From Deltaproteobacteria bacterium 13_1_40CM_4_68_19 (GTDB taxonomy: Bacteria > Myxococcota > Myxococcia > Myxococcales > 40CM-4-68-19): a DNA stretch of 41,334 bases. This document shows, piece after piece, positions 1,043-41,334 of this stretch. A model generated the notes under the pieces. That model was not told the DNA's origin. It was given only the letters and a program-made list of their open reading frames with translations, and ran no database searches. Where the stretch lies: positions 1-41,334 of the forward strand of contig MNFJ01000119.1 of assembly GCA_001918155.1 (NCBI GenBank). Reading direction: 5' to 3'. Both the position numbers and the translations under genes were made by a program. Position 1 is the first letter of the stretch. Each line of letters begins with the position of its first letter.

Positions 1043-1330
1043 CTCATGCTCCTCGCGTTCCTACCGCGTCATTGCGCGCAGCGTGCAGGGCAGAGGCTGC
1101 GGCGGCGGCCCGAGACCGCGCCGTGCGTAGGGGTTGCGTGACTGCGAGTCCCCGGTCCCTTGGGGGCCGCGGCTTCTAACACGCGGAACCTGGCGGATCA
1201 AGTTGGGCAAAAGCGTTCCCTTCCTGCCCTGCCGATCGACCAGCCTGCCGAGCGGAGCGCTCACTGGCACGCCGGCTGCTCGAGGGCTCCCCGCGGCGAG
1301 GGGAACCGTCGGTTCCTCCGGGGAGACGGG

Positions 1331-29633: not shown

Positions 29634-31685
29634 CTACTGCTCCAGCACGCGCACCGGCAGCACGACCATCGGCAGTCCCGCGAACTGGAACCGCCGCTGC
29701 ATGGCGTACGCCGTCTCGTTGTGGAGGAAACGGTCGAACCAGCGCTCGCGCTCGAAGATCAGCTTCCCCGCGAAGAAGATGGCGCGGGGATACTCGCGCG
29801 CGATCTCGCCGGCAACCCGGACGGCCTCCGTGACGGCCTCCGTGCCCATCGCCACGCGGTAATCCGCGGGCAGGCCCATCCGCTGCGCCTGCTCGACATA
29901 TTTCTTCAGATCTTCCTCGGCCTGCTCGCGCACGCGGTCTACTTCCTCCACGCCCTGGAAGGTGGCGCTGTCCACCACGCCGACGGTGACGAAGATGACG
30001 TTCTGGAAGTAGCGCGGAAACAGTTTCAGGACGGTGAGGAGGGAGTGGATGCCCAGGCCGGAATACCCCCCGACCAGGAGGACCGCGGTGGGCTTCTTCG
30101 GGTCGAGCGCCTTCTTCGGAGCAGGCTGCGACGGGAGCGCTTCGAGGATCTGATCGAGCCGCTTGAGCCGGGCGAAGATGCTTGCGTAGTGCCGCTTGAT
30201 GGCCATGCAGAGCGCGATCAGGGCGCTGGTCGCCAGCATCGTCAGCCAGCCGCCTTCGCGGAACTTCTCCGCCACCGTGATGGTCAGGATCACGATGCAG
30301 AGGGCCGCGCCGACGAGGTGGATGGAGATGTGCTTCTTCCAATCCGGCTGCTTGCGGCGCGTCTCGCGCTTCGTCCAGTACCGGATCATGGCGATCTGGG
30401 TGAGCGAGAAGGTGAGGAAGACGTTGATCGAGTACATCACCACCAGCGCATCCACACGGCCCCGCGTGTAGAGCAGCATGGCGAGGCCGGCCCCGCCCAT
30501 GAGCAGGACGCCGTTCTGCATGGTGAGGCGATCGCTGAGCGCGCTGAAGCGGTGGGGGAGCCAGGAGTCGTGCGCCATGTTCGCCATCACCCGCGGGCCG
30601 TCGATGAAGCCGGCCTGGGCGGCGACGAAGAGCAGCAGCGCCTCGGAGAGCAGCGTGATGAAGACGAACCATTTCCCGACCGGAATGCCGAGGAGCCGCA
30701 CCCCGCCGGCCACCTTCGCGGCGAGCAGCGAATTCATGGTGTGGTCGGGATCGGCGTAGCGGATGTCGAGCAGCAGGTAGCAGAGGATGATGCCGCTGGC
30801 GGTCACGGCCAGGCTGATCGCCATGTAGGCCATCGTCCGCTTGCCGGTCTGGACCCGCGGCTCGCGCATGATCTGCAGGCCGTTCGAGACCGCCTCGATT
30901 CCGGTATAGGTGCCGCCGCCGAGCGAATAGGCGCGCACGAACAGGAGGAGAAGGCCGCCCAGACCGAGCGTCGACATCCCGTGCGAGAGGCCGGTGGACA
31001 CTTCCTGCACCACTTCTTGCGCGCGGCCGAGGTGCAGCCCGATGCCGGTGCCGATGATCACGGCGTGCGTCAGCAGGAACGCGAGGAAGATCGGCATCAG
31101 CACGGTCACCGATTCCTTCACGCCTCGCAGGTTGAGCAGCACGAGGACGAGCACCCCGAGAAGCTCGATGTGCAGCTTCAGCGGCAGACCGGTGACGACG
31201 AGGTTCGCCCAGCGCGCGCCGTCCGGAAGCACGCTGAACACCGCGTCTCCACCCGCCGCGATGGAGATGGAGATGGTGAGGACGTAGTCGACGATCAGCG
31301 CCGAGCCGCTCACCACTCCTGCGCGCGGCCCGAGCAGGCGGGAGGCGACGACGTAACCGCCGCCGCCGAAGGGGAAGTGCTCGATGACGCGGCTGTAGGA
31401 GGCCGCGATGATGAGGACCGTGAACGCGGTCGCTGCGGCAAGGAAGACGGCGAGATACGTGTGCTCGCCCAGGTTCTTGAACGCTTCCTCCGGGCCGTAT
31501 GCCGAAGACGAGAGACCGTCCGCGCCGAGGCCGACCCAGGCGAGGAAGGCGATGAGCGAGATGTGCCGGAAAAGGTGCGGGTCCTGCAGGTCTTTCGGGC
31601 CGCCCAGGAGGAACCGTTTCAGCCGCTGCCCGGCTCTCGGGCGGTGCTCCGGCTCCGGCGGCACGGACTGTGCTGGCGTGCTCAT
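29634..31685 (-). CDS. APC-superfamily potassium transporter, KimA-like
   Basis: A 683-residue protein with about twelve membrane segments (start HISLIAFLAWVGLGADGLSS) and a cytoplasmic C-terminal domain of about 160 residues that has a USP-like look (PTAVLLVGGYSGLGIHSLLT). The first segment ends in ADGLSSSAYGPEEAF, which corresponds to the DALSSVAYGPEQ motif of KimA (YdaO), the high-affinity K+/H+ symporter of Bacillus. General APC amino acid permeases remain the alternative. The Kdp genes at 33-41 kb and the sigma-54 promoter shared in style with kdp support potassium as substrate. The ATG at 31685 is the most likely start; the ORF track runs further upstream into the promoter region. Confidence 0.78.
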   Translation of the reverse strand: MSTPAQSVPPEPEHRPRAGQRLKRFLLGGPKDLQDPHLFRHISLIAFLAWVGLGADGLSSSAYGPEEAFKNLGEHTYLAVFLAAATAFTVLIIAASYSRVIEHFPFGGGGYVVASRLLGPRAGVVSGSALIVDYVLTISISIAAGGDAVFSVLPDGARWANLVVTGLPLKLHIELLGVLVLVLLNLRGVKESVTVLMPIFLAFLLTHAVIIGTGIGLHLGRAQEVVQEVSTGLSHGMSTLGLGGLLLLFVRAYSLGGGTYTGIEAVSNGLQIMREPRVQTGKRTMAYMAISLAVTASGIILCYLLLDIRYADPDHTMNSLLAAKVAGGVRLLGIPVGKWFVFITLLSEALLLFVAAQAGFIDGPRVMANMAHDSWLPHRFSALSDRLTMQNGVLLMGGAGLAMLLYTRGRVDALVVMYSINVFLTFSLTQIAMIRYWTKRETRRKQPDWKKHISIHLVGAALCIVILTITVAEKFREGGWLTMLATSALIALCMAIKRHYASIFARLKRLDQILEALPSQPAPKKALDPKKPTAVLLVGGYSGLGIHSLLTVLKLFPRYFQNVIFVTVGVVDSATFQGVEEVDRVREQAEEDLKKYVEQAQRMGLPADYRVAMGTEAVTEAVRVAGEIAREYPRAIFFAGKLIFERERWFDRFLHNETAYAMQRRFQFAGLPMVVLPVRVLEQ

Positions 31686-31766: not shown

Positions 31767-31779
31767 TTGCATCATGCAA
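31767..31779. promoter_or_regulatory. 13-bp palindrome, candidate enhancer-binding site
   Basis: TTGCATCATGCAA is a perfect inverted repeat centred on one base. It lies about 65 bases upstream of the + strand -24/-12 candidate, the usual distance for an upstream activator site. TTGCA half-sites recur upstream of the kdp promoter at 41164-41208. Confidence 0.45.
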
Positions 31780-31843
31780 CCCGGAGGCCTGGTCTTTCTT
31801 GCATTTCGCAAGAGGGTGCGGCGGCGGCGCGAGCGTGGCTTTC

Positions 31844-31859
31844 CGGCACGACCTCTGCA
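31844..31859 (+). promoter_or_regulatory. Candidate sigma-54 promoter of the response regulator gene
   Basis: CGGCACGACCTCTGCA fits the GGCACG-N4-(T)TGCA consensus, with ten bases between GG (31845-31846) and GC (31857-31858). The predicted start near 31871 leaves a leader of about 105 bases before the TTG at 31976. Confidence 0.5.
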
Positions 31860-31930: not shown

Positions 31931-31947
31931 GCGCAACTGCCGTGCCG
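31931..31947 (-). promoter_or_regulatory. Candidate sigma-54 promoter of the KimA-like gene
   Basis: On the minus strand CGGCACGGCAGTTGCG matches GGCACG-N4-TTGC exactly, with ten bases between GG and GC. The predicted start near 31921 gives a leader of about 235 bases for the transporter at 31685. It faces the + strand candidate at 31844-31859, so the two transcripts would overlap at their 5' ends by about 50 bases. Confidence 0.55.
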
Positions 31948-31975: not shown

Positions 31976-33343
31976 TTGAACGACGAGACGAACACGGGCC
32001 AGCGAGCATTCCGCGTCCTGGTCGTGGACGACGAGCGCAACATCCGCAAGACGCTGGCGGTCTGCCTGGAATCTCTCGGCTGCGCGGTCACGGAGTGCGG
32101 AACGGCGGCTGCCGCGATCGACTCGCTCGCGCGCCTGCCGCACGATCTCGCGTTCGTCGATCTGCGGCTGGGAAAGGAGAGCGGGCTGGACCTTCTCGGT
32201 TCGCTGCTGGCGGAGCGGCCCGCCCTCGAGGTGATCATCATCACCGCCTACGCGACCATCGACACCGCGGTCGACGCGATCCGCCGCGGCGCCCGCGACT
32301 ATCTGCCCAAGCCGTTCACGCCGGCGCAGATCCAGCGCGCCGTCGAGCAAGCGCGCTCGCGCATCGAGCTGTCCACGCGCGTGGCCGACCTCGAGGAGCA
32401 GCTCGCGGACGCCGCGCCGGAAGTGATGCTTTCCACGCCGAGCGCCGCCATGCGCGCGGTGCTCGACGTGATCGGCCGCACCGCCGCCCACGACGTTCCC
32501 GTGCTCCTGCGCGGCGAAAGCGGCACGGGCAAGACCGTCCTGGCGCGAGCGCTCCACCGGCAGAGCCCGCGACGTGGCCGTCCCTTCGCAGTCGTGAACT
32601 GCCCCGCCCTCAGCGAGGAGCTGCTGGCGAGCGAGATGTTCGGACATGTCAAGGGCGCTTTCACGGGAGCGGTGCGCGATCAGCCCGGGCGGGTGGAAGC
32701 CGCGGAAGGTGGTACCCTCTTCCTCGACGAGGTGGGCGAGGTCCCGCCCTCGATCCAGGCCAAGCTGCTGCGCTTCCTGCAGGACAAGCAGTTCGAGCGG
32801 GTGGGAGAGACGCGGACCCGGATCGCGGACGTCCGGATCGTGGCCGCCACCAATCGCGATCTCGACGACGCGGTCCGCGCAGGCCACTTCCGCGAGGACC
32901 TTCTCTTCCGCCTCAACGTCGTCGAGGTCACCGTCCCTCCGCTGCGCGAGCGGCGCGAGGAGATCCTCCCGCTGGCGCGGAGCTTTCTCAGCTTCTTCGC
33001 CCGCGCGGCGCGCCGCGCGCCGCAGCAGCTCTCGCCGGAGGCGGAACGGGCATTTCTCGCCTATGCCTGGCCGGGGAACGTCCGCGAACTGCGCAATGCC
33101 ATCGAGCGCGCGGTCATCCTCTCCCCCGCCCAGGTGCTGCAGCCGCAGGCATTCCCGGACCGGATCGCACAGACCGCGACCACCGTGCCGCAGCTCGGTG
33201 GCGACTTCTCCGTCGAGCAGATCGAGCGCGAGCACATCCTGCGCGTGCTCGCCCGCACCCGCACGCAGGAGGAGGCGGCGCACGTGCTCGCGGTAGACGC
33301 CTCGACGCTGTGGCGCAAGCGGAAGAAGTACGAAAGCGAATGA
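31976..33343 (+). CDS. Sigma-54-dependent response regulator, NtrC/AlgB type
   Basis: A 455-residue three-domain activator. Receiver domain: RVLVVDDERNIRKTL, phospho-acceptor Asp in AFVDLRLGKESGLDLL, Lys in YLPKPF. AAA+ domain: Walker A GESGTGKT, sigma-54 contact loop GAFTGA, Walker B TLFLDEVGEV. C-terminal Fis-type helix-turn-helix: EEAAHVLAVDASTLWRKRKK. The DASTLWRKRKKY ending resembles the AlgB branch of the family. The start is TTG at 31976 behind GGAGAG; no ATG fits. The cognate kinase is probably the convergent gene at 33.5-35.3 kb. Divergent from the KimA-like gene, it is placed to control that gene and the kdp operon, but this is inference. Confidence 0.88.
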   Translation: MNDETNTGQRAFRVLVVDDERNIRKTLAVCLESLGCAVTECGTAAAAIDSLARLPHDLAFVDLRLGKESGLDLLGSLLAERPALEVIIITAYATIDTAVDAIRRGARDYLPKPFTPAQIQRAVEQARSRIELSTRVADLEEQLADAAPEVMLSTPSAAMRAVLDVIGRTAAHDVPVLLRGESGTGKTVLARALHRQSPRRGRPFAVVNCPALSEELLASEMFGHVKGAFTGAVRDQPGRVEAAEGGTLFLDEVGEVPPSIQAKLLRFLQDKQFERVGETRTRIADVRIVAATNRDLDDAVRAGHFREDLLFRLNVVEVTVPPLRERREEILPLARSFLSFFARAARRAPQQLSPEAERAFLAYAWPGNVRELRNAIERAVILSPAQVLQPQAFPDRIAQTATTVPQLGGDFSVEQIEREHILRVLARTRTQEEAAHVLAVDASTLWRKRKKYESE

Positions 33344-33458: not shown

Positions 33459-35291
33459 CTACGCGGCGCTGGCACGAATGCTGCGCCCGGGCACCGGCAA
33501 CGTGAACCAGAAGCGGCTCCCCTTCCCCGGTTCGCTCTCGACCCCCATGTCCCCTCCGTGCGCGAGGACGATCTCCCGGGCCAGGTAGAGGCCGAGTCCA
33601 ATGCCCTCCCCTTTGGTTCCCGGCACGCGGAAGAACTTCTCGAAGATCCGACTCCGATACTCGGGTGGAATGCCTTCGCCGTGGTCCTCCACCTCGAACC
33701 GCACGCTGTCGTGTTGTGGTTGCGCCCGCACGACCACGGTGCTTCCGGGCGCGCTGTGCCGGACCGCATTGCCGATCAGGTTGTCGAGGACCAGGGCGAT
33801 CCGCTCCGCGTCGGCCAGCACGGGGAGCACCGGCTCGCGGACTTCCGCCGCAAGCTGGATCTTCGCCGCCGCTGCCGCCGCGGAGCGATTCGCCAGCGCT
33901 CCCTCCACCAGGGACTTTGCCGAGATGGCCGCCGGCTGCACTTCCACCTTTCCCGCCTGGATCCGCGCGAGGTCGAGCAGGTCGTCGACGATATCCTGCA
34001 GACGCTCGCAGTCCTCGCGGGCGGCCTGCAACAGGTCTGCCTGCTTCTCGCTGATCGGGCCCACCGTGCTCTCCAGGAGGATGTGGATCGCCATGCGCAG
34101 TGAGGTGAGCGGGGTCCTGAACTCGTGCGCGACGGTCGCCACCAGATCGTTCTTCAGCTCGTCGAATCGCACCAGGCGCGTCACGTCCTGCAGGACGATG
34201 GTCGCGCCGGCGACGGCGCCCTCCTCGGAGTAGAGCGGAGTCGCCCGCGGCAGCATCCGGCGGTCGCGAACGCGAAGCGCCTCTTCCAACCCGCGCGGCA
34301 GGTACGGGCCTCTTCCGGCAACCACGTGCGCCCGCACTTTCTCGATCGCGTCGCGCAGCTCGGGGTCGATGCGAGCCAGGGGTCGCTCGCCGGCTTGGAT
34401 CTGCAGCTCCCGCTCGGCGCTCTCGTTCACGTTCAGGAGCGTACCGTCCGCGGCGACCACCAGGATCGGATCGGGAAGGCTGTCGATGGCCGCCTGCGAT
34501 GCCTGCTGCGCCTGGAGCAGCTCCCCGAGCGAGCTGCTGCGGTACTCGCGCAGCTTGTCGGCCATGGTGTCGAGCTCGCGTCCGACCTGCGCGATCTCGT
34601 CCTCTCCCTGGATGCGCGCCCTCGCCTCGAGATCGCCTTCTCCGATGCGCCGCACGGCCAGGCTGAGCAGGTTGAGCGGCCGCAGCGCCCGCCGGGTGAG
34701 CGATACGGAGGCGAAGAGGCAGAGGACCAGGGCGCAGATGGTGGAGAGCAGGAGCAGCGAGCGGTTGCGTTCGGCGGTGGCGCGCGCGCGGTCGCTCTTC
34801 AGCAGCATCGCGTCCTGGTTGATCTCCAGGATCCTCTCCGCCGCGTCCTTGATCCGGAGGAATTCGGGCTGCAGCTCCTCGAAGTAGTGGCGGCGCAGCT
34901 CCTGTTCCCCGCCGATCCTGCGAAATGCGTCGTACTTCGCCCGGTATTCGTTCCAGGCAGCCCGCAGCCGGCGCGTCGCCTCCGCCTCGCCCGCCTCGGT
35001 GATGTTGCTCTCCTGCGCGCGCAGCTCCGTCTCGAATGCCTCGATGTTCGGGCCCGCCTGGGCGTCGCCCTTGTCGGGCCTGCCGGCCGCGCGGAACAGG
35101 GCGGCGCTGTCGATCCGCTCCGCGGCCTCGTTCATCCGCTGCACCGCGAGCACGCTGCGGAAGTTGTCCTGCAGGATCCGCTCCGAGCTCCGGCCCAGCG
35201 TCTGCAGGGTGTTCAGCGCCACGAGGCCGACGAGGGCGAGGCCCGCTGCCAGCGGCGCTTGCGCCAGCAGCAGCTTGGTCCTCAGGGTCAC
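33459..35291 (-). CDS. Membrane sensor histidine kinase, KinB-like
   Basis: A 610-residue kinase. Domains in order: TM1 (residues 4-26), periplasmic helical sensor of about 150 residues, TM2 (RSLLLLSTICALVLCLFASV), HAMP, PAS (AIDSLPDPILVVAADGTLLN), HisKA with H-box TVAHEFRTPLTSLRMAIHIL, and HATPase_c with N-box LVLDNLIGNAVRHS, D-box EDHGEGIPP, F-box IFEKFFR and G-box GIGLGLYLARE. The layout resembles KinB, which pairs with the NtrC-type AlgB in Pseudomonas. The GTG start overlaps the stop of the truncated kdpD by four bases (GTGA), so the two are translationally coupled. The periplasmic domain is unlike the DUF4118 region of classical KdpD. Confidence 0.86.
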   Translation of the reverse strand: MTLRTKLLLAQAPLAAGLALVGLVALNTLQTLGRSSERILQDNFRSVLAVQRMNEAAERIDSAALFRAAGRPDKGDAQAGPNIEAFETELRAQESNITEAGEAEATRRLRAAWNEYRAKYDAFRRIGGEQELRRHYFEELQPEFLRIKDAAERILEINQDAMLLKSDRARATAERNRSLLLLSTICALVLCLFASVSLTRRALRPLNLLSLAVRRIGEGDLEARARIQGEDEIAQVGRELDTMADKLREYRSSSLGELLQAQQASQAAIDSLPDPILVVAADGTLLNVNESAERELQIQAGERPLARIDPELRDAIEKVRAHVVAGRGPYLPRGLEEALRVRDRRMLPRATPLYSEEGAVAGATIVLQDVTRLVRFDELKNDLVATVAHEFRTPLTSLRMAIHILLESTVGPISEKQADLLQAAREDCERLQDIVDDLLDLARIQAGKVEVQPAAISAKSLVEGALANRSAAAAAAKIQLAAEVREPVLPVLADAERIALVLDNLIGNAVRHSAPGSTVVVRAQPQHDSVRFEVEDHGEGIPPEYRSRIFEKFFRVPGTKGEGIGLGLYLAREIVLAHGGDMGVESEPGKGSRFWFTLPVPGRSIRASAA

Positions 35292-36430
35292 GCCCGCTCC
35301 TCGTCGGTGGCCGCCACCACGTGGAGGTCGAAGTCGGTGCCTTCGCGCAAGAACTGCGTCAGCACCGAGCCGCGCAGCACCTGCTTCCACCAGGGCTGCA
35401 TCGAGCGTCCCACGATGACGTGGGCGACACCGTGCGTGCGGGCGAAATCCAGCAGGGCGTGCGCCGGCTCATCCGATTTCAGCCGCACCACTTCGGCGCC
35501 GAGCTCCCGAGCCTTCTCGACGTTGGCGAGCAGGTGGCGCTGCGCCTCGGAGTCGATCAGGTTCGGCGCCTCGTCCGGCGTTTCCACGTAGACGACGAAC
35601 CAATCCGTGTTCAGGCGGCCGGCCATGCGCGACCCGCGCGAGAGCAGCGTCTTCGCGCGCGGTGGATTGGAGGCGAGGCACACCATCACCCGCCCGGACG
35701 CCTTCACCTCCGGCGCGCCCTTCGCCAGACCGGCGCGATCCAGGCTCTCCGCGACCTCGCGCAGGGCCAGCTCCCGCAGGGTGGCCAGGTTCTGATCCTT
35801 GAAGAAGTTCTCCAGCGCCCAGGGGATCTTTTCCGGAGCGTAGATCTTCCCCGAGCGGAGGCGCTCCTGCAGGTCCTCGACCGCCAGATCGAGGTTCACC
35901 ACCTGGTCGGCCTGGGTGAGGAAGGTGTCGGGAACGGTCTCGCGCACCACCACGCCTGTCGCGCGCTCGATGAGCCCATTGAGCGACTCCAGGTGCTGCA
36001 CGTTCATTGCGCCGATCACGTTGATCCCGGCGTCCAGAAGCGCGAGCACGTCCTGGTAACGCTTGCGGTTGCGCGACCCCGGCGCGTTGGTATGCGGGAT
36101 CTCGTCCACCACCGCGACGGTGGGCCGGCGCAGCAGCACGGCGTCGAGATCCATCTCCTCGACGACCACGCCGCGATACTCGATGCGGCGCCGGGGCACG
36201 ACTTCCAGCCCTTCGATCAGCGCAGACGTCTCCGGGCGGCCGTGCGGCTCGATGAAGGCGATCACCACGTCCACCCCGCGGCGCCGCAGATCGTGCCCTT
36301 CCTGCAGCATCCGGTACGTCTTTCCCACCCCGGCGGCGAACCCGACGTATAGCTTGAGGCGGCCGCGCCTTGCCCGCTCGACCAGCTCGAGAAAGTCCTC
36401 GGGCCTTCGGGTTTGCGCCGGTTTCGTCAT
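35288..36430 (-). CDS. kdpD: Truncated KdpD: KdpD and USP domains only
   Basis: A 380-residue protein that equals the N-terminal cytoplasmic part of KdpD. The KdpD domain has Walker A FAAGVGKTYRML and Walker B VAVVDEIPHTNAPGSRNRKR. A USP domain follows (VMVCLASNPPRAKTLLSRGS, then HVIVGRSMQPWWKQVLRGSV). The four membrane helices and the kinase domain of normal KdpD (about 890 residues) are absent, and the frame ends cleanly at a stop that overlaps the next gene, so this is a gene architecture and not a frameshift. I do not see the intact SxS...FTAxY c-di-AMP motif of the Staphylococcus USP domain. It presumably passes potassium or turgor information to the kinase encoded next. ATG 36430 has GGGAG close upstream; 36445 is an alternative. 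Confidence 0.86.
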   Translation of the reverse strand: MTKPAQTRRPEDFLELVERARRGRLKLYVGFAAGVGKTYRMLQEGHDLRRRGVDVVIAFIEPHGRPETSALIEGLEVVPRRRIEYRGVVVEEMDLDAVLLRRPTVAVVDEIPHTNAPGSRNRKRYQDVLALLDAGINVIGAMNVQHLESLNGLIERATGVVVRETVPDTFLTQADQVVNLDLAVEDLQERLRSGKIYAPEKIPWALENFFKDQNLATLRELALREVAESLDRAGLAKGAPEVKASGRVMVCLASNPPRAKTLLSRGSRMAGRLNTDWFVVYVETPDEAPNLIDSEAQRHLLANVEKARELGAEVVRLKSDEPAHALLDFARTHGVAHVIVGRSMQPWWKQVLRGSVLTQFLREGTDFDLHVVAATDEERA

Positions 36431-36486
36431 CTGCTCCCGGATCATTCCACCATTTGTCGGCGCCGGTCGCCATCAGCACGGCGTGG

Positions 36487-37089
36487 CTATCGAGTGGCGA
36501 GCGGCGGGCGTCCGAAATGCCGATCGAGCGCCCGGTTGACCAGAAGGACGTTGACCCTCGGCTCTCCGAGAACCAGCAGATCGCGCCCTTCGATGTTCGA
36601 TTCGATGATCGTCCGGACGCGCGATTCTTCCACGCCGCGCGCCCGGGCGATGCGCGGCACCTGCCAGAGCGCCGCCGCCGGCGAGAGATGGGGGTCGAGG
36701 CCGCTCGCCGAGGCGCTGACCAGCTCTGCCGGCACCGGCCCCTCGGCATTGGGGTTTTCTTGAATGAGCCGCTGCAAGTCCTTGGCTGCCCGGTCTCGCA
36801 GCGCCTTCGAGGTCGGCCCCAGGTTGGAGCCCGAGGACCCCGCGGCGTCGTAGCCTTTCTCACCCGCCGCCGAGGGCCGCGGCTGCAGGTATCCGGCCTT
36901 GGCGAAGGGCTGCGCGATCAGCCCGGATCCGACCACGTTACCGTAGTCATCGCTGACCATGCTCCCGGAGGCCTGCTGGGGAAAGATCGCCCCCGCGACG
37001 GCGGTGGTGACCAGGGGATATGCCAGCCCGACGCCGATCAAGGTGACCAGCGTGGTGCGGACGGCGGCAAGAAGCTCGTTGCGAAGCAT
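36487..37089 (-). CDS. kdpC: Potassium-transporting ATPase subunit C
   Basis: A 200-residue inner-membrane subunit of the KdpFABC pump with one N-terminal membrane helix (TTLVTLIGVGLAYPLVTTAV) and a periplasmic domain. SGSNLGPTSKALRDR, GPVPAELVSASASGLDPHLS and PAAALWQVPRIARARG are the family motifs. GGAGGG precedes the ATG. It starts nine bases after the kdpB stop, in the usual kdpFABC order. Confidence 0.95.
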   Translation of the reverse strand: MLRNELLAAVRTTLVTLIGVGLAYPLVTTAVAGAIFPQQASGSMVSDDYGNVVGSGLIAQPFAKAGYLQPRPSAAGEKGYDAAGSSGSNLGPTSKALRDRAAKDLQRLIQENPNAEGPVPAELVSASASGLDPHLSPAAALWQVPRIARARGVEESRVRTIIESNIEGRDLLVLGEPRVNVLLVNRALDRHFGRPPLATR

Positions 37090-37098
37090 GAGCCCTCC

Positions 37099-39174
37099 TC
37101 AGACCAGACCGATCGCGGCCAGGCCGAGATCGATGATCTTGATTCCCACGAACGGAGCGATGACCCCGCCGACGCCGTAGATGAGCAGCGAACGGCGCAG
37201 CAGCGCCGCTGCGCCAAGCGGGCGGTAGCGGACTCCCCGCAGCGCCAGCGGGATCAGCAGGATGATGATGATGGCGTTGAACACCACCGCGCTCAGGATC
37301 GCGCTGTAGGGCGAAGCGAGCCGCATGACGTTGAGCGGCGCCAGCTCGGGAAAAACGCCGACGAACAGCGCGGGGAGGATGGCGAAGTACTTCGCCACGT
37401 CGTTTGCGATCGAGAACGTGGTCAGCGTCCCCCGCGTCATCAGCAGCTGCTTGCCGACCTCGACCACCTCCAGGAGCTTCGTGGGGTCGGAGTCGAGATC
37501 GACCATGTTGCCCGCTTCCTTGGCGGCCTGCGTGCCGGTATTCATGGCGACACCGACGTCCGCCTGCGCGAGCGCCGGCGCGTCGTTGGTGCCGTCGCCG
37601 GTCATCGCCACGAGCTTGCCCTTGCCCTGCTCGTCCTTGATGAGCTGCATCTTCGTCTCCGGCGTCGCCTGCGCGAGGAAGTCGTCAACGCCCGACTCGC
37701 GGGCGATGGCCGCCGCGGTGCGCGGGTTGTCGCCGGTGATCATCACCGTGCGGATCCCCATGGCCCGGAAGCGCGCGAACCGCTCAGCGATGCCGCCCTT
37801 CACCATGTCCTTCAGGTGGATGAGCCCGAGAAACCTTGCGCCATCGGCCACTGCCAGCGGCGTCCCGCCGGCGTCGGCGATCTTCCACGCGGTCTGCACC
37901 ATCTCCTCGGGCATCTGGCCACCCTGCGACTTGACGTAATCGCCCACCGCGTCCACGGCGCCCTTGCGCACGTGCCGCTGGTCCAGGTCGCATCCGCTCA
38001 TGCGCGTCTGCGCGCTGAACGGGATGAAATGCGCGATCCCCCTCGTCTCCCGGCCGCGCAGCTGGTGCTTCTCCTTGAGCAGCACGACGATCGAGCGGCC
38101 CTCCGGAGTTTCGTCGGCGAGGCTGGCGAGCTGGGCCGCATCGGCCAGCTCCTCGACGCGCACGCCGGGCGCGGGCAGGATCTCCGTCGCCATGCGGTTG
38201 CCGAGCGTGATGGTTCCGGTCTTGTCGAGGAGCAGCGTGTCCACGTCGCCGGCGGCCTCGACCGCGCGCCCGCTCATCGCCAGCACGTTCTTGCGCAGGA
38301 GCCGGTCCATCCCCGCGATCCCGATGGCGGACAAGAGGCCGCCGATGGTCGTCGGGATCAGGCAGACCAGCAGGGCCACCACCGCGGGGGCTCCCAGGCG
38401 GATGCCCGAATAGAGCGCCATCGGCACCAGCGTCACGCAGGCGAACAGGAACACGATGGTCAGCCCGACCAGGAGGATGTGCAGCGCGATCTCGTTCGGC
38501 GTCTTCTGCCGCGCCGCGCCCTCCACCAGGCCGATCATCCGGTCGAGGAACGACTCGCCGGGGTCCACCGTGATGCGCACCACGATGCGATCCGAGAGCA
38601 CCTTCGTGCCGCCGGTCACGGCGGAGCGATCGCCGCCGCTCTCGCGGATCACCGGCGCCGATTCCCCGGTGATCGCCGACTCGTCGACGGAGGCGATGCC
38701 TTCGATGACCTCCCCGTCGCCGGGGATGACCTGGCCCGCGTCCACGATGACCAGGTCGCCTTTCTTCAGACGCGAGGCCGGAATGATGTCTTCGTTGGAG
38801 ATGCCAGGCACGTCGTCCGTGGGCGGCCAGAAGCGCACCTTCCGCGCCACCGTGTCCTGGCGCATCCTGCGCAAGGTCTCCGCTTGCGCTTTTCCTCGTC
38901 CCTCGGCGACGGCTTCGGCGAAGTTCGCGAACACCACCGTGAACCACAGCCAGATGGCGACGGCGAGCGTGAACCAGGTCGGCGCCTGCCCGGACGATGG
39001 AGAGAGGACATCGCGGAGCCAGATCGCGGTGGTGAGGATGCTGCCGATCTCCACCACGAACATGACCGGGTTCTTGGCCACGAGCTGCGGGGCGAGCTTC
39101 TTGAAGGACTCCAGGATCGCCGGGCGAAGGATCGAGGGATCGACGAGCGAGAGCTGCTTTGCCTTGGGAGCCAT
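37099..39174 (-). CDS. kdpB: Potassium-transporting ATPase subunit B
   Basis: The P-type ATPase subunit (691 residues) that powers the KdpFABC pump by ATP hydrolysis. Phosphorylation motif [11 protein letters not shown], actuator motif [14 protein letters not shown], hinge motif [20 protein letters not shown]. The membrane segments match type IA P-type ATPases. The start [20 protein letters not shown] directly adjoins the kdpA stop with no gap. All catalytic residues are intact. Confidence 0.97.
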
Positions 39175-40899
39175 TCAGAAGACCCTCCCTGCGCCGGCGG
39201 CGAAATGCTCGACGACCGGGCCGAGCGAGAGCGCGGGAAAGAAGGTGAGCGCACCGACGATGAGCACCACCGAGACGAGCAGGCCGACGAAGAGGCTGCC
39301 GTTCGTGGGGAAGGTGCCGGGCCCCGCGGGAGTCACCTTCTTGTCCACCATGGATCCGGCCATGGCGATGGCCGGGATCATCATCAGGAAGCGGCCGACG
39401 AGCATGTCCGCGGCCAGCGCCAGGTTGTAGAAGGGCGTGTTCGCGTTCAGTCCCGCAAAGGCCGAGCCGTTGTTTCCGGCGCCGCTCGAGAATGCGTAGA
39501 GGATCTCGGAGAGGCCGTGCGGTCCGGCGTTGTTCAGCGAGGAGACGCCGTACGGCACGACCAGCGCCCAGGCCGTGAAGCTGAGGATGAGCAGAGGGAA
39601 GATGAGGACGTAGAGCATCGCCAGCTTCATCTCGCGCGCCTCGATCTTCTTGCCGAGGTACTCGGGCGTGCGTCCGACCATCAGGCCGGCGATGAAGACG
39701 GTGAGGACGACGAAGATCAGCATCCCGTACATTCCGGCGCCGACGCCGCCGAAGATGACCTCGCCGAGCTGGATGTTCAGCAGGGGCACCAGACCGCCCA
39801 AGGGCGTGAAGCTGTCGTGCATCGCGTTCACCGCGCCGCAGGAAGCGTCGGTGGTGACCGTGGCGAAGAGCGCCGAGGCGGAAAGACCGAAGCGCGTCTC
39901 CTTGCCCTCGAAGTTTCCGCAGCCCTGCTGGAGCTGCGCGAGGCCGTGCAGCGCGGGATTGTCGTGCGCCTCGGCCCAATAGAGGGTGACGACGCCGGCG
40001 ATGCAGAGCACCGCCATCGCGGCCCACAGCGCCCAGCCCTGCCGCTGGTCGCGCGCCATGCGGCCGTACGTCCAGGTCAGCGCGGAGGGGATGGCGAAGA
40101 TGGACACCATCTGGACGAAGTTGCTCAGCGGCGTCGGGTTCTCGAACGGATGGGCGCTGTTCGCGTTGAAGAAGCCGCCGCCGTTCGTGCCCAGCATCTT
40201 GATCGCTTCCTGCGAGGCGACCGGGCCCATGGCCAGGACCTGCTTCACGCCTTCCAGCGTCGTCACCTCCCGGTACGGGAGCAGGTTCTGCAGCACTCCC
40301 TGCGAGACGAGGAACAGCGCGTAGAAGAAGGAGATGGGCAAGAGGACGTAGATCGTCGAGCGGACCAGATCGACCCAGAAGTTGCCGATGGTCTTGCCGG
40401 CCAGCGGTCCCGCCTTGCGCGTCAGCCCTCGCGCGATGACGAGCGCCACGGCGATTCCCGCCGCGGCGGAGGTGAAGTTGTGCCACGCCAGACCCGCCAT
40501 CTGCGTGAGGTAGCTGACGGTGGTCTCCGGCACGTACGCCTGCCAGTTGGTGTTCGTGGTGAAGCTTGCGGCGGTGTTGAACGCCAGCGCCGGCTCCACG
40601 GCTGCAAGGTGCTGCGGATTCAGGGGCAGGACGTGCTGCAGGCGCTCGATGCCATACGTCACCAGCACGCCGAGGAAGCTGAATGCGAGCAACGAGAAGG
40701 CATACACGGGCCAGGTCTGCCCCTGCGCCGGATCCACGCCGCAGAGCCGATAGGTGAATCGCTCGATCCGTCCGAACACCCGCGGCAGTGGCTGCCGCTC
40801 GCCTTCGAACACGCGGAACATGTACGCGCCGAGCGGCTTCGTCAGCGCCAGCACGACGGCGAAGAACAAGACGATCTGCACCCAGCCGATGGCGGTCAT
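39175..40899 (-). CDS. kdpA: Potassium-transporting ATPase subunit A
   Basis: The potassium-selecting subunit (574 residues, ten membrane helices). Its four pore loops are visible in order: [49 protein letters not shown] and [17 protein letters not shown]. These correspond to the four MPM selectivity-filter repeats. The start overlaps the kdpF stop by one base (TGATG), which suggests translational coupling. Confidence 0.97.
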
Positions 40900-40988
40900 C
40901 AGAAGCGCTCCGGTTTGACCAGGGCCCAGGACAGGTAGACGAGCAGAAGAACGGAGAGAGCGAGCCCGATTCCGTATTCGAGGTTCAT
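40899..40988 (-). CDS. kdpF: KdpF small subunit of the potassium pump
   Basis: A 29-residue single-helix membrane peptide, [20 protein letters not shown] followed by WALVKPERF, with the terminal L-x-x-PERF ending of KdpF. KdpF stabilises the KdpABC complex. It is too short for the ORF track. It overlaps kdpA at its stop and the preceding small ORF at its start, each by one base (TGATG). Confidence 0.93.
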
Positions 40989-41071
40989 CAGAGCTTCTCG
41001 CAGAGCCGCGCGTAGCCCCAGGAGAGGGCGAAGAAGGCGGCGGTCGCCAGGATCAGCAGGAGGTCGGCCAT
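40988..41071 (-). CDS. 27-residue membrane peptide upstream of kdpF
   Basis: [20 protein letters not shown] followed by ARLCEKL is a single hydrophobic helix with a Trp-Gly-Tyr-Ala-Arg boundary and a short charged tail. It uses the same TGATG one-base overlap to kdpF as kdpF does to kdpA, which argues that it is translated. It is likely to insert in the inner membrane near the Kdp complex. Small hydrophobic ORFs before kdpF occur in other genomes to my knowledge, but I know of no function. Confidence 0.78.
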
Positions 41072-41095
41072 GGATGTTCTCCGGCCGCTGCCTCA

Positions 41096-41111
41096 AGCAC
41101 GCGCCGTGCCG
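41096..41111 (-). promoter_or_regulatory. Candidate sigma-54 promoter of the kdp operon
   Basis: On the minus strand CGGCACGGCGCGTGCT has GGCACG at the -24 position and GTGCT at -12, with ten bases between GG (41110-41109) and GC (41098-41097). The predicted start near 41085 is about 14 bases before the ATG of the 27-residue peptide, a short but usable leader. Confidence 0.5.
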
Positions 41112-41163
41112 TTCCTCCCGCCTTGAAATTGGCCGAGGATTCGCGCTCTGGGCGGGATGGCGA

Positions 41164-41208
41164 TTGCAGATTGCGCGGCGAGCCGGCAGCTGCTCCTGCA
41201 ACCTGCAA
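41164..41208. promoter_or_regulatory. Inverted repeat upstream of kdp, candidate activator site
   Basis: TTGCAGATTGC (41164-41174) is matched by GCAACCTGCAA (41198-41208), an 11-base inverted repeat with one mismatch across a 23-base spacer. Relative to the predicted kdp start it spans about -80 to -123, where sigma-54 activators bind. The TTGCA half-site also forms the palindrome at 31767-31779. Confidence 0.5.
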
Positions 41209-41247: not shown

Positions 41248-41334
41248 TCAGCCTTCCGTGCCCACCTGCTCGTCGCCCTCGTCGGCCGCCGCCAGCCCGT
41301 ACTTGTGGAGCTTCGAATGCAACGTCCCGCGGTT
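41248..41334 (-). CDS. Sigma-54-dependent regulator, C-terminal tail
   Basis: Only the last 28 residues lie in the window; the gene continues beyond the right edge. NRGTLHSKLHKYGL is the recognition helix and end of a Fis-type (HTH_8) DNA-binding domain typical of NtrC-family activators, followed by an acidic tail. It is oriented toward kdp and its stop is about 137 bases from the candidate kdp -24 box. It could be the activator of kdp, but its own domains cannot be seen. Confidence 0.7.
   Translation of the reverse strand, partial: NRGTLHSKLHKYGLAAADEGDEQVGTEG

Follow-up and report, generated by a model that had tools for sequence, protein, structure and literature searches.

Putative sigma-54 control of the kdp operon by an NtrC-type regulator and paired upstream dyads in myxobacteria

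Under textbook kdp control, the OmpR-type response regulator KdpE activates a sigma-70 promoter. The pairing of a HAMP-PAS kinase with an NtrC-family regulator is familiar from KinB/AlgB of Pseudomonas aeruginosa. For kdp itself, DVU3334 of Desulfovibrio vulgaris was mapped to its own kdp operon, which has a split KdpD (Rajeev 2011, PMC3333781), and was listed as a regulator with GAFTGA that controls a sigma-54-dependent operon for potassium uptake (Kazakov 2015, PMC4641369). Short KdpD proteins are serine kinases acting on KdpB, apparently their sole role in species without KdpE (PMC11018627, 2024). In Myxococcus xanthus, no genes are induced more strongly by live prey than kdpA and kdpB, whose control was assigned to KdpDE (PMC5857379).

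We analysed a stretch of 41,334 bases (hereafter the window), the whole of contig C31 in a 3.46 Mb MAG that is 74.8% complete; its nearest named relatives in sequence searches are soil Deltaproteobacteria MAGs of one myxobacterial family. From its right end, read along the minus strand, the window carries the end of a response-regulator gene (28 codons), a 176-bp gap, a 27-aa ORF, kdpF, kdpA, kdpB, kdpC, a KdpD-N/Usp gene and a histidine kinase gene. An NtrC-type response-regulator gene is convergent to this operon, and the gene for a KimA-like importer is divergent from the regulator gene:

41248-41334, minus strand: C-terminal 28 codons of another response-regulator gene, cut by the contig end, stop codon at 41248-41250
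40988-41071, minus strand: putative membrane ORF of 27 aa, predicted to head the kdp transcript
40899-40988, minus strand: kdpF, 29 aa (PF09604, TIGR02115), its ATG overlapping the stop of the 27-aa ORF
39175-40899, minus strand: kdpA (PF03814, E 3e-244)
37099-39174, minus strand: kdpB, with the TGES motif
36487-37089, minus strand: kdpC (PF02669)
35288-36445, minus strand: stand-alone KdpD N-terminal plus Usp protein (PF02702, PF00582), with a GFAAGVGKT (G-X5-GKT) motif
33459-35294, minus strand: separate sensor histidine kinase, HAMP-PAS-HisKA-HATPase, likely GTG start
31976-33343, plus strand: NtrC-family response regulator, the proposed activator, with a receiver, a sigma-54 AAA+ domain bearing GAFTGA and a Fis helix-turn-helix; TTG start behind GGAGAG
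29634-31685, minus strand: KimA-like potassium importer, its sole PDB match KimA (6s3k, E 3.7e-57), with AA_permease_2 in the longer ORF

Membrane-like ORFs of 26-29 aa with the pattern ...FFALxWAYxxxCERL precede kdpF in most relatives and may encode an undescribed small Kdp-associated protein; Pfam and NCBIfam searches of the 27-aa ORF at 40988-41071 gave no family match. An Rfam search of the window returned zero RNA elements, so that no known riboswitch was detected there.

Compared with E. coli KdpD/KdpE, the locus has the same pump genes, two-component control and a KdpD-N/Usp domain. Unlike the E. coli type, which joins a full-length KdpD to an OmpR-type KdpE at the locus, it has a split KdpD and no KdpE, and its predicted promoter and enhancer are of sigma-54 type. 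Set beside D. vulgaris DVU3334-3339 by description, it shows the same combination of an NtrC-type GAFTGA regulator, kdpFABC under a predicted sigma-54 promoter, and KdpD split into a KdpD-Usp protein and a separate kinase, and the three genic hallmarks of that type (kdpFABC, split KdpD and an adjacent GAFTGA response regulator) are all present. The D. vulgaris regulator gene lies inside the kdp operon, whereas here it is convergent and has its own putative enhancer pair, probably shared with kimA. Given this precedent, sigma-54 control of kdp is not a new idea; our sequence comparisons add its breadth in myxobacteria, an explicit putative enhancer, and a predicted regulon taking in kimA, the regulator gene and, in some lineages, a porin. 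The kinase/regulator pairing also resembles that of KinB/AlgB, with potassium genes as the predicted targets here.

Like the short KdpD serine kinases of PMC11018627, the protein at 35288-36445 is a stand-alone KdpD-N plus Usp with the G-X5-GKT motif; its histidine-kinase part is absent, and it matches NF038185 (KdpD-like non-kinase sensor) below the cut-off. That study infers post-translational control only where KdpE is missing, whereas here a separate kinase and an NtrC-type regulator stand beside kdp, which suggests that transcriptional control persists in some short-KdpD species.

The sequence-only reading had placed a GGCACG-N4-GTGC match with ten-base GG-GC spacing just before the first kdp ORF, and it is indeed present, on the minus strand at 41110-41097. 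The elements of the upstream region are as follows:

41096-41111, minus strand: putative sigma-54 (-24/-12) promoter of the kdp operon, CGGCACG-GCGC-GTGCT, from PWM and pattern scans
41164-41176, minus strand: proximal putative enhancer dyad GCGCA-ATC-TGCAA, centre about -85
41196-41208, minus strand: distal putative enhancer dyad TTGCA-GGT-TGCAG, centre about -117

The promoter match ends 25 bp ahead of the first ORF (start 41071), which puts the expected transcription start near 41085, and it agrees with the consensus TGGCACG-N4-TTGCW at 10 of 12 positions, with GG and GC kept at exact spacing (GG-N10-GC). When Markov sequences were matched in composition to the 176-bp intergenic gap, 0.27% of them held a site as good and 0.015% the exact string. 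By itself the site is moderately convincing, because sites scoring at least 13 recur about once per 9 kb of strand across the window, on an approximate matrix, taken from the published consensus and serving for ranking only. Its conservation in relatives makes it strong: all eight same-family relatives with a split-KdpD locus carry a sigma-54 site at the matching position amid diverged flanking DNA. In these same-family loci, the equivalent site is mostly CGGCAYG-N4-RTGCW, 204-237 bp ahead of kdpA; in L058 it lies 120 bp ahead of kdpA, and the small ORF was not found there. The seven full-KdpD loci examined had no equivalent conserved site. Two more strong sigma-54-like sites in the window, 1265-1280 (plus strand, TGGCACGCCGGCTGCT) and 33470-33485 (plus strand, TGGCACGAATGCTGCG), lie away from the dyads.

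The observation that no kdpE is visible at the locus was borne out across the window, and the genome yielded no orthologue-grade KdpE; its best OmpR-type match, on another contig, is 41% identical, versus 50-55% for the KdpE beside kdp in KdpE-type relatives. As the genome is 74.8% complete, this absence is not absolute. A chance sigma-54 match in GC-rich DNA, with kdp actually under E. coli-like control from a sigma-70-type promoter through a distant OmpR-type KdpE, might be entertained given that some relatives have loci with a full KdpD plus KdpE and given the background frequency of similar-scoring sites, but we consider it very improbable: the split-type genomes yielded no orthologue-grade KdpE, a sigma-70 promoter scan of the kdp upstream region gave no match, and the sigma-54 sites are conserved in position and tied to the dyads. 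Good support for the predicted sigma-54 control of kdp comes from phylogenetic footprinting, the genome-wide specificity of the motif, the orthologous GAFTGA NtrC-type regulator and rpoN, which was found in the genome (PF04552, E 1e-61, contig C186). The proposed departure from textbook control holds, though with the precedent in D. vulgaris.

A TTGCA inverted repeat had also been noted at about -80 to -123. The repeat exists, but its parsing as one inverted repeat was wrong, and the region contains two tandem dyads that approximate TTGCA-N3-TGCAA, with cores 32 bp apart. We dropped the single long inverted repeat because the dyad form alone is conserved with fixed spacing: in relatives the pair recurs with a spacing of 31 or 32 bp, and the main set of split-type loci gave 32 pairs at these two spacings and 0-4 at every other spacing from 12 to 60. 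Such a pair occurred in none of 20,000 Markov sequences of the kdp intergenic composition and in none of seven KdpE-type loci. Tandem elements at about -117 and -85, separated by 32 bp, fit the arrangement of a sigma-54 enhancer (UAS), with sites some 80-150 bp upstream at near-whole helical turns.

Exactly two dyad pairs occur in the window, the one upstream of kdp and a second between kimA and the regulator gene (31767-31811):

31767-31779, no strand assigned: putative enhancer dyad TTGCATCATGCAA in the kimA-regulator gap, from the motif scan
31799-31811, no strand assigned: putative enhancer dyad TTGCATTTCGCAA in the same gap, 32 bp from its partner at 31767-31779
31844-31859, plus strand: putative sigma-54 site CGGCACG-ACCT-CTGCA ahead of the regulator gene, conserved in L179 and L188

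This second pair probably also serves the divergent kimA. A kimA-side sigma-54 site at 31947 (minus strand) was not accepted as its promoter because it is unconserved and lies past the dyads; in the window, the promoter facing kimA is degenerate, and we make no claim for it.

Searching the 3.46 Mb genome with at most one mismatch at either spacing recovered only two matches to the pair, those at kdp and in the kimA/regulator gap. A third match, with two mismatches, lies about 50 bp ahead of a BBP2 porin gene remnant (L175), and one further two-mismatch match at 31 bp looks like chance. The porin in L175 (G000:C76, 902-1543), directly downstream of this weaker third pair, appears shortened and frame-broken. 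Across 21 related genomes, 17 pairs with at most one mismatch were found, 16 of them at kdp, regulator, kimA or porin-kdp operon loci, and the sole pair elsewhere was G006:C352:30772 (L178); the same search at a control spacing of 28 bp gave zero matches. A pair with at most one mismatch was present in 12 of 14 genomes with split-type kdp versus none of seven others (Fisher p 0.0003, on loci that are not independent samples). At kdp, G016 has a pair with two mismatches; G019 (L071) has the regulator and kinase but lacks the pair. Of the 41 pair-to-gene cases, 36 show a sigma-54 site scoring at least 9.5 at 32-85 bp past the pair, compared with 1.8% of random stretches; a p value on these figures is not to be taken literally, since the cases share ancestry and L184 is a second entry for the L068 locus.

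That the dyad element marks the start of the operon is argued most strongly by a comparison of the Myxococcaceae with L088. In the Myxococcaceae, a gene for a BBP2 porin precedes kdpF and appears, from gene order, to head the kdp operon; the dyad pair precedes this porin gene, about 1.4 kb (some 1,440 bp) from kdpA, whereas in L088 the pair lies directly upstream of the operon at -238 and -206. The idea that Myxococcaceae are without the motif was rejected, as it is found some 1.4 kb upstream, a position explained by the porin gene heading the operon there. BBP2 beta-barrel porin genes (PF07642, E 2e-69) stand ahead of kdp in L059, L057, L062, L067, L079 and other loci.

The domain composition of the regulator at 31976-33343 (PF00072, PF00158 and PF02954) is that of an NtrC-family enhancer-binding protein. 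Its orthologues are 60-97% identical, with GAFTGA and Asp62 invariant in the myxobacterial alignment, and in most split-type loci they lie within or adjoin the kdp operon, in some between kdpC and kdpD-N. Its gene carries the same dyad pair plus a conserved sigma-54 site. Going by this co-occurrence, the regulator, encoded 8 kb away, is most likely the activator of kdp.

The sequence-only reading had further pointed to a sigma-54 activator gene ending just upstream of kdp, and had left the choice between this edge gene and the NtrC-type regulator. A 28-aa fragment resembling a Fis-type helix-turn-helix end is indeed there, the rest of the gene being missing because the window is the whole contig; we judge that it is not the kdp activator and favour the regulator at 31976-33343. 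That the sigma-54 promoter answers to this truncated edge regulator (41248-41334) draws on its place directly upstream of kdp and on L059, where an end 70% identical to the fragment lies about 1.2 kb upstream of the pair. We nevertheless hold it to be quite unlikely, if the least so of the alternatives weighed here, since close relatives of its receiver occur near kdp in only two close species (L059 and L060), the L060 copy is broken and lacks the helix-turn-helix end, and many loci that lack the edge gene retain the dyad pair, which also precedes the gene of the regulator at 31976-33343.

Taken together, we consider it very likely that kdp is transcribed from a sigma-54 promoter switched on through the tandem dyads by the kinase-fed NtrC-type regulator at 31976-33343, within a small potassium regulon. 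The promoter, the dyads, their conservation, their genome-wide specificity and the gene content come from sequence; for the signal, the phosphorylation by the separate kinase, the dyad binding by this regulator and the role of KdpD-N, we infer the following course. Scarce potassium or high osmolarity would lead the HAMP-PAS histidine kinase to phosphorylate the regulator, which would bind the two TTGCA-N3-TGCAA dyads at -117 and -85, about three DNA turns apart. Its AAA+ ring would then form, and the GAFTGA loop would open the sigma-54 polymerase complex at 41111-41096, so that the small ORF, kdpF, kdpA, kdpB, kdpC, KdpD-N/Usp and the histidine kinase gene are transcribed as one operon. Through the pair at 31767-31811, the regulator would activate its own gene and probably kimA too; since the same pair occurs at these genes, it would head a small potassium regulon. 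The KdpD-N/Usp protein is probably a serine kinase acting on the finished pump, outside transcription. The product of c-di-AMP synthase could feed the KdpD-N/Usp and KimA proteins; a search for the enzyme found it in 11 of 12 relatives but not in this genome (74.8% complete).

Dyad position alone is no proof of activation, and the dyads might instead be a repressor or architectural site for the regulator, with kdp mainly read through or constitutive. This we regard as the least probable of the alternatives, as both the distance from dyads to sigma-54 site and the AAA+ domain with GAFTGA agree with activation, and salt raises kdpAB of M. xanthus, from a group that shares this wiring, by log2 8.7-10.3 (PMC5857379), a rise that suits a tightly off sigma-54 promoter. 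For the activation reading, deletion of rpoN, which had been put forward as a check, may be impossible, since a passage in PMC12316311 cites sigma-54 as essential in Myxococcus xanthus.

Beyond myxobacteria, a kinase-alignment scan found the split kinase and NtrC-type regulator with kdp or KdpD-N genes in Planctomycetota, Verrucomicrobiota, Bacteroidota and a Wallbacteria MAG. Dyad pairs of the right spacing occur in L103, L107 and L109, reaching Planctomycetales (L107, L109), and looser dyads in L101 and L112; the motif was absent from the Bacteroidota loci and L108 when these were scanned, so the Bacteroidota may use a different site. Other gene orders combine the NtrC-type regulator and split kinase with kdp in L107, L109, L112 and L115 (Planctomycetota and a Syntrophobacteraceae MAG), with the dyad pair between the regulator and kinase genes in L107 and L109. 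L108 (CAMAXZ010000004.1), titled as a Klebsiella pneumoniae MAG, carries a split NtrC-type kdp locus with 43% kinase identity, and its label is probably wrong.

Our survey shows that the sigma-54 kdp wiring, as predicted from these loci and known from one sulfate-reducing bacterium, is common in myxobacteria. It is probable that this represents a second class of Kdp control with a wide distribution, one where an NtrC-type regulator and sigma-54 replace KdpE, paired TTGCA-N3-TGCAA dyads at 31-32 bp mark a regulon of kdp, kimA, the regulator gene and the BBP2 porin gene, and KdpD-N/Usp would be only a post-translational off-switch. Among the relatives examined, including Myxococcus sp. CA023 (L104), the predicted sigma-54 wiring is present with no KdpE beside kdp; the assignment of kdp in Myxococcus to KdpDE thereby comes into question, with a regulator, a site and a promoter now named for direct mutation. 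The arrangement likewise qualifies the inference that short-KdpD species without KdpE lack transcriptional control of the pump (PMC11018627), and it suggests that the response also takes in KimA, an importer of another family, and an outer-membrane porin.
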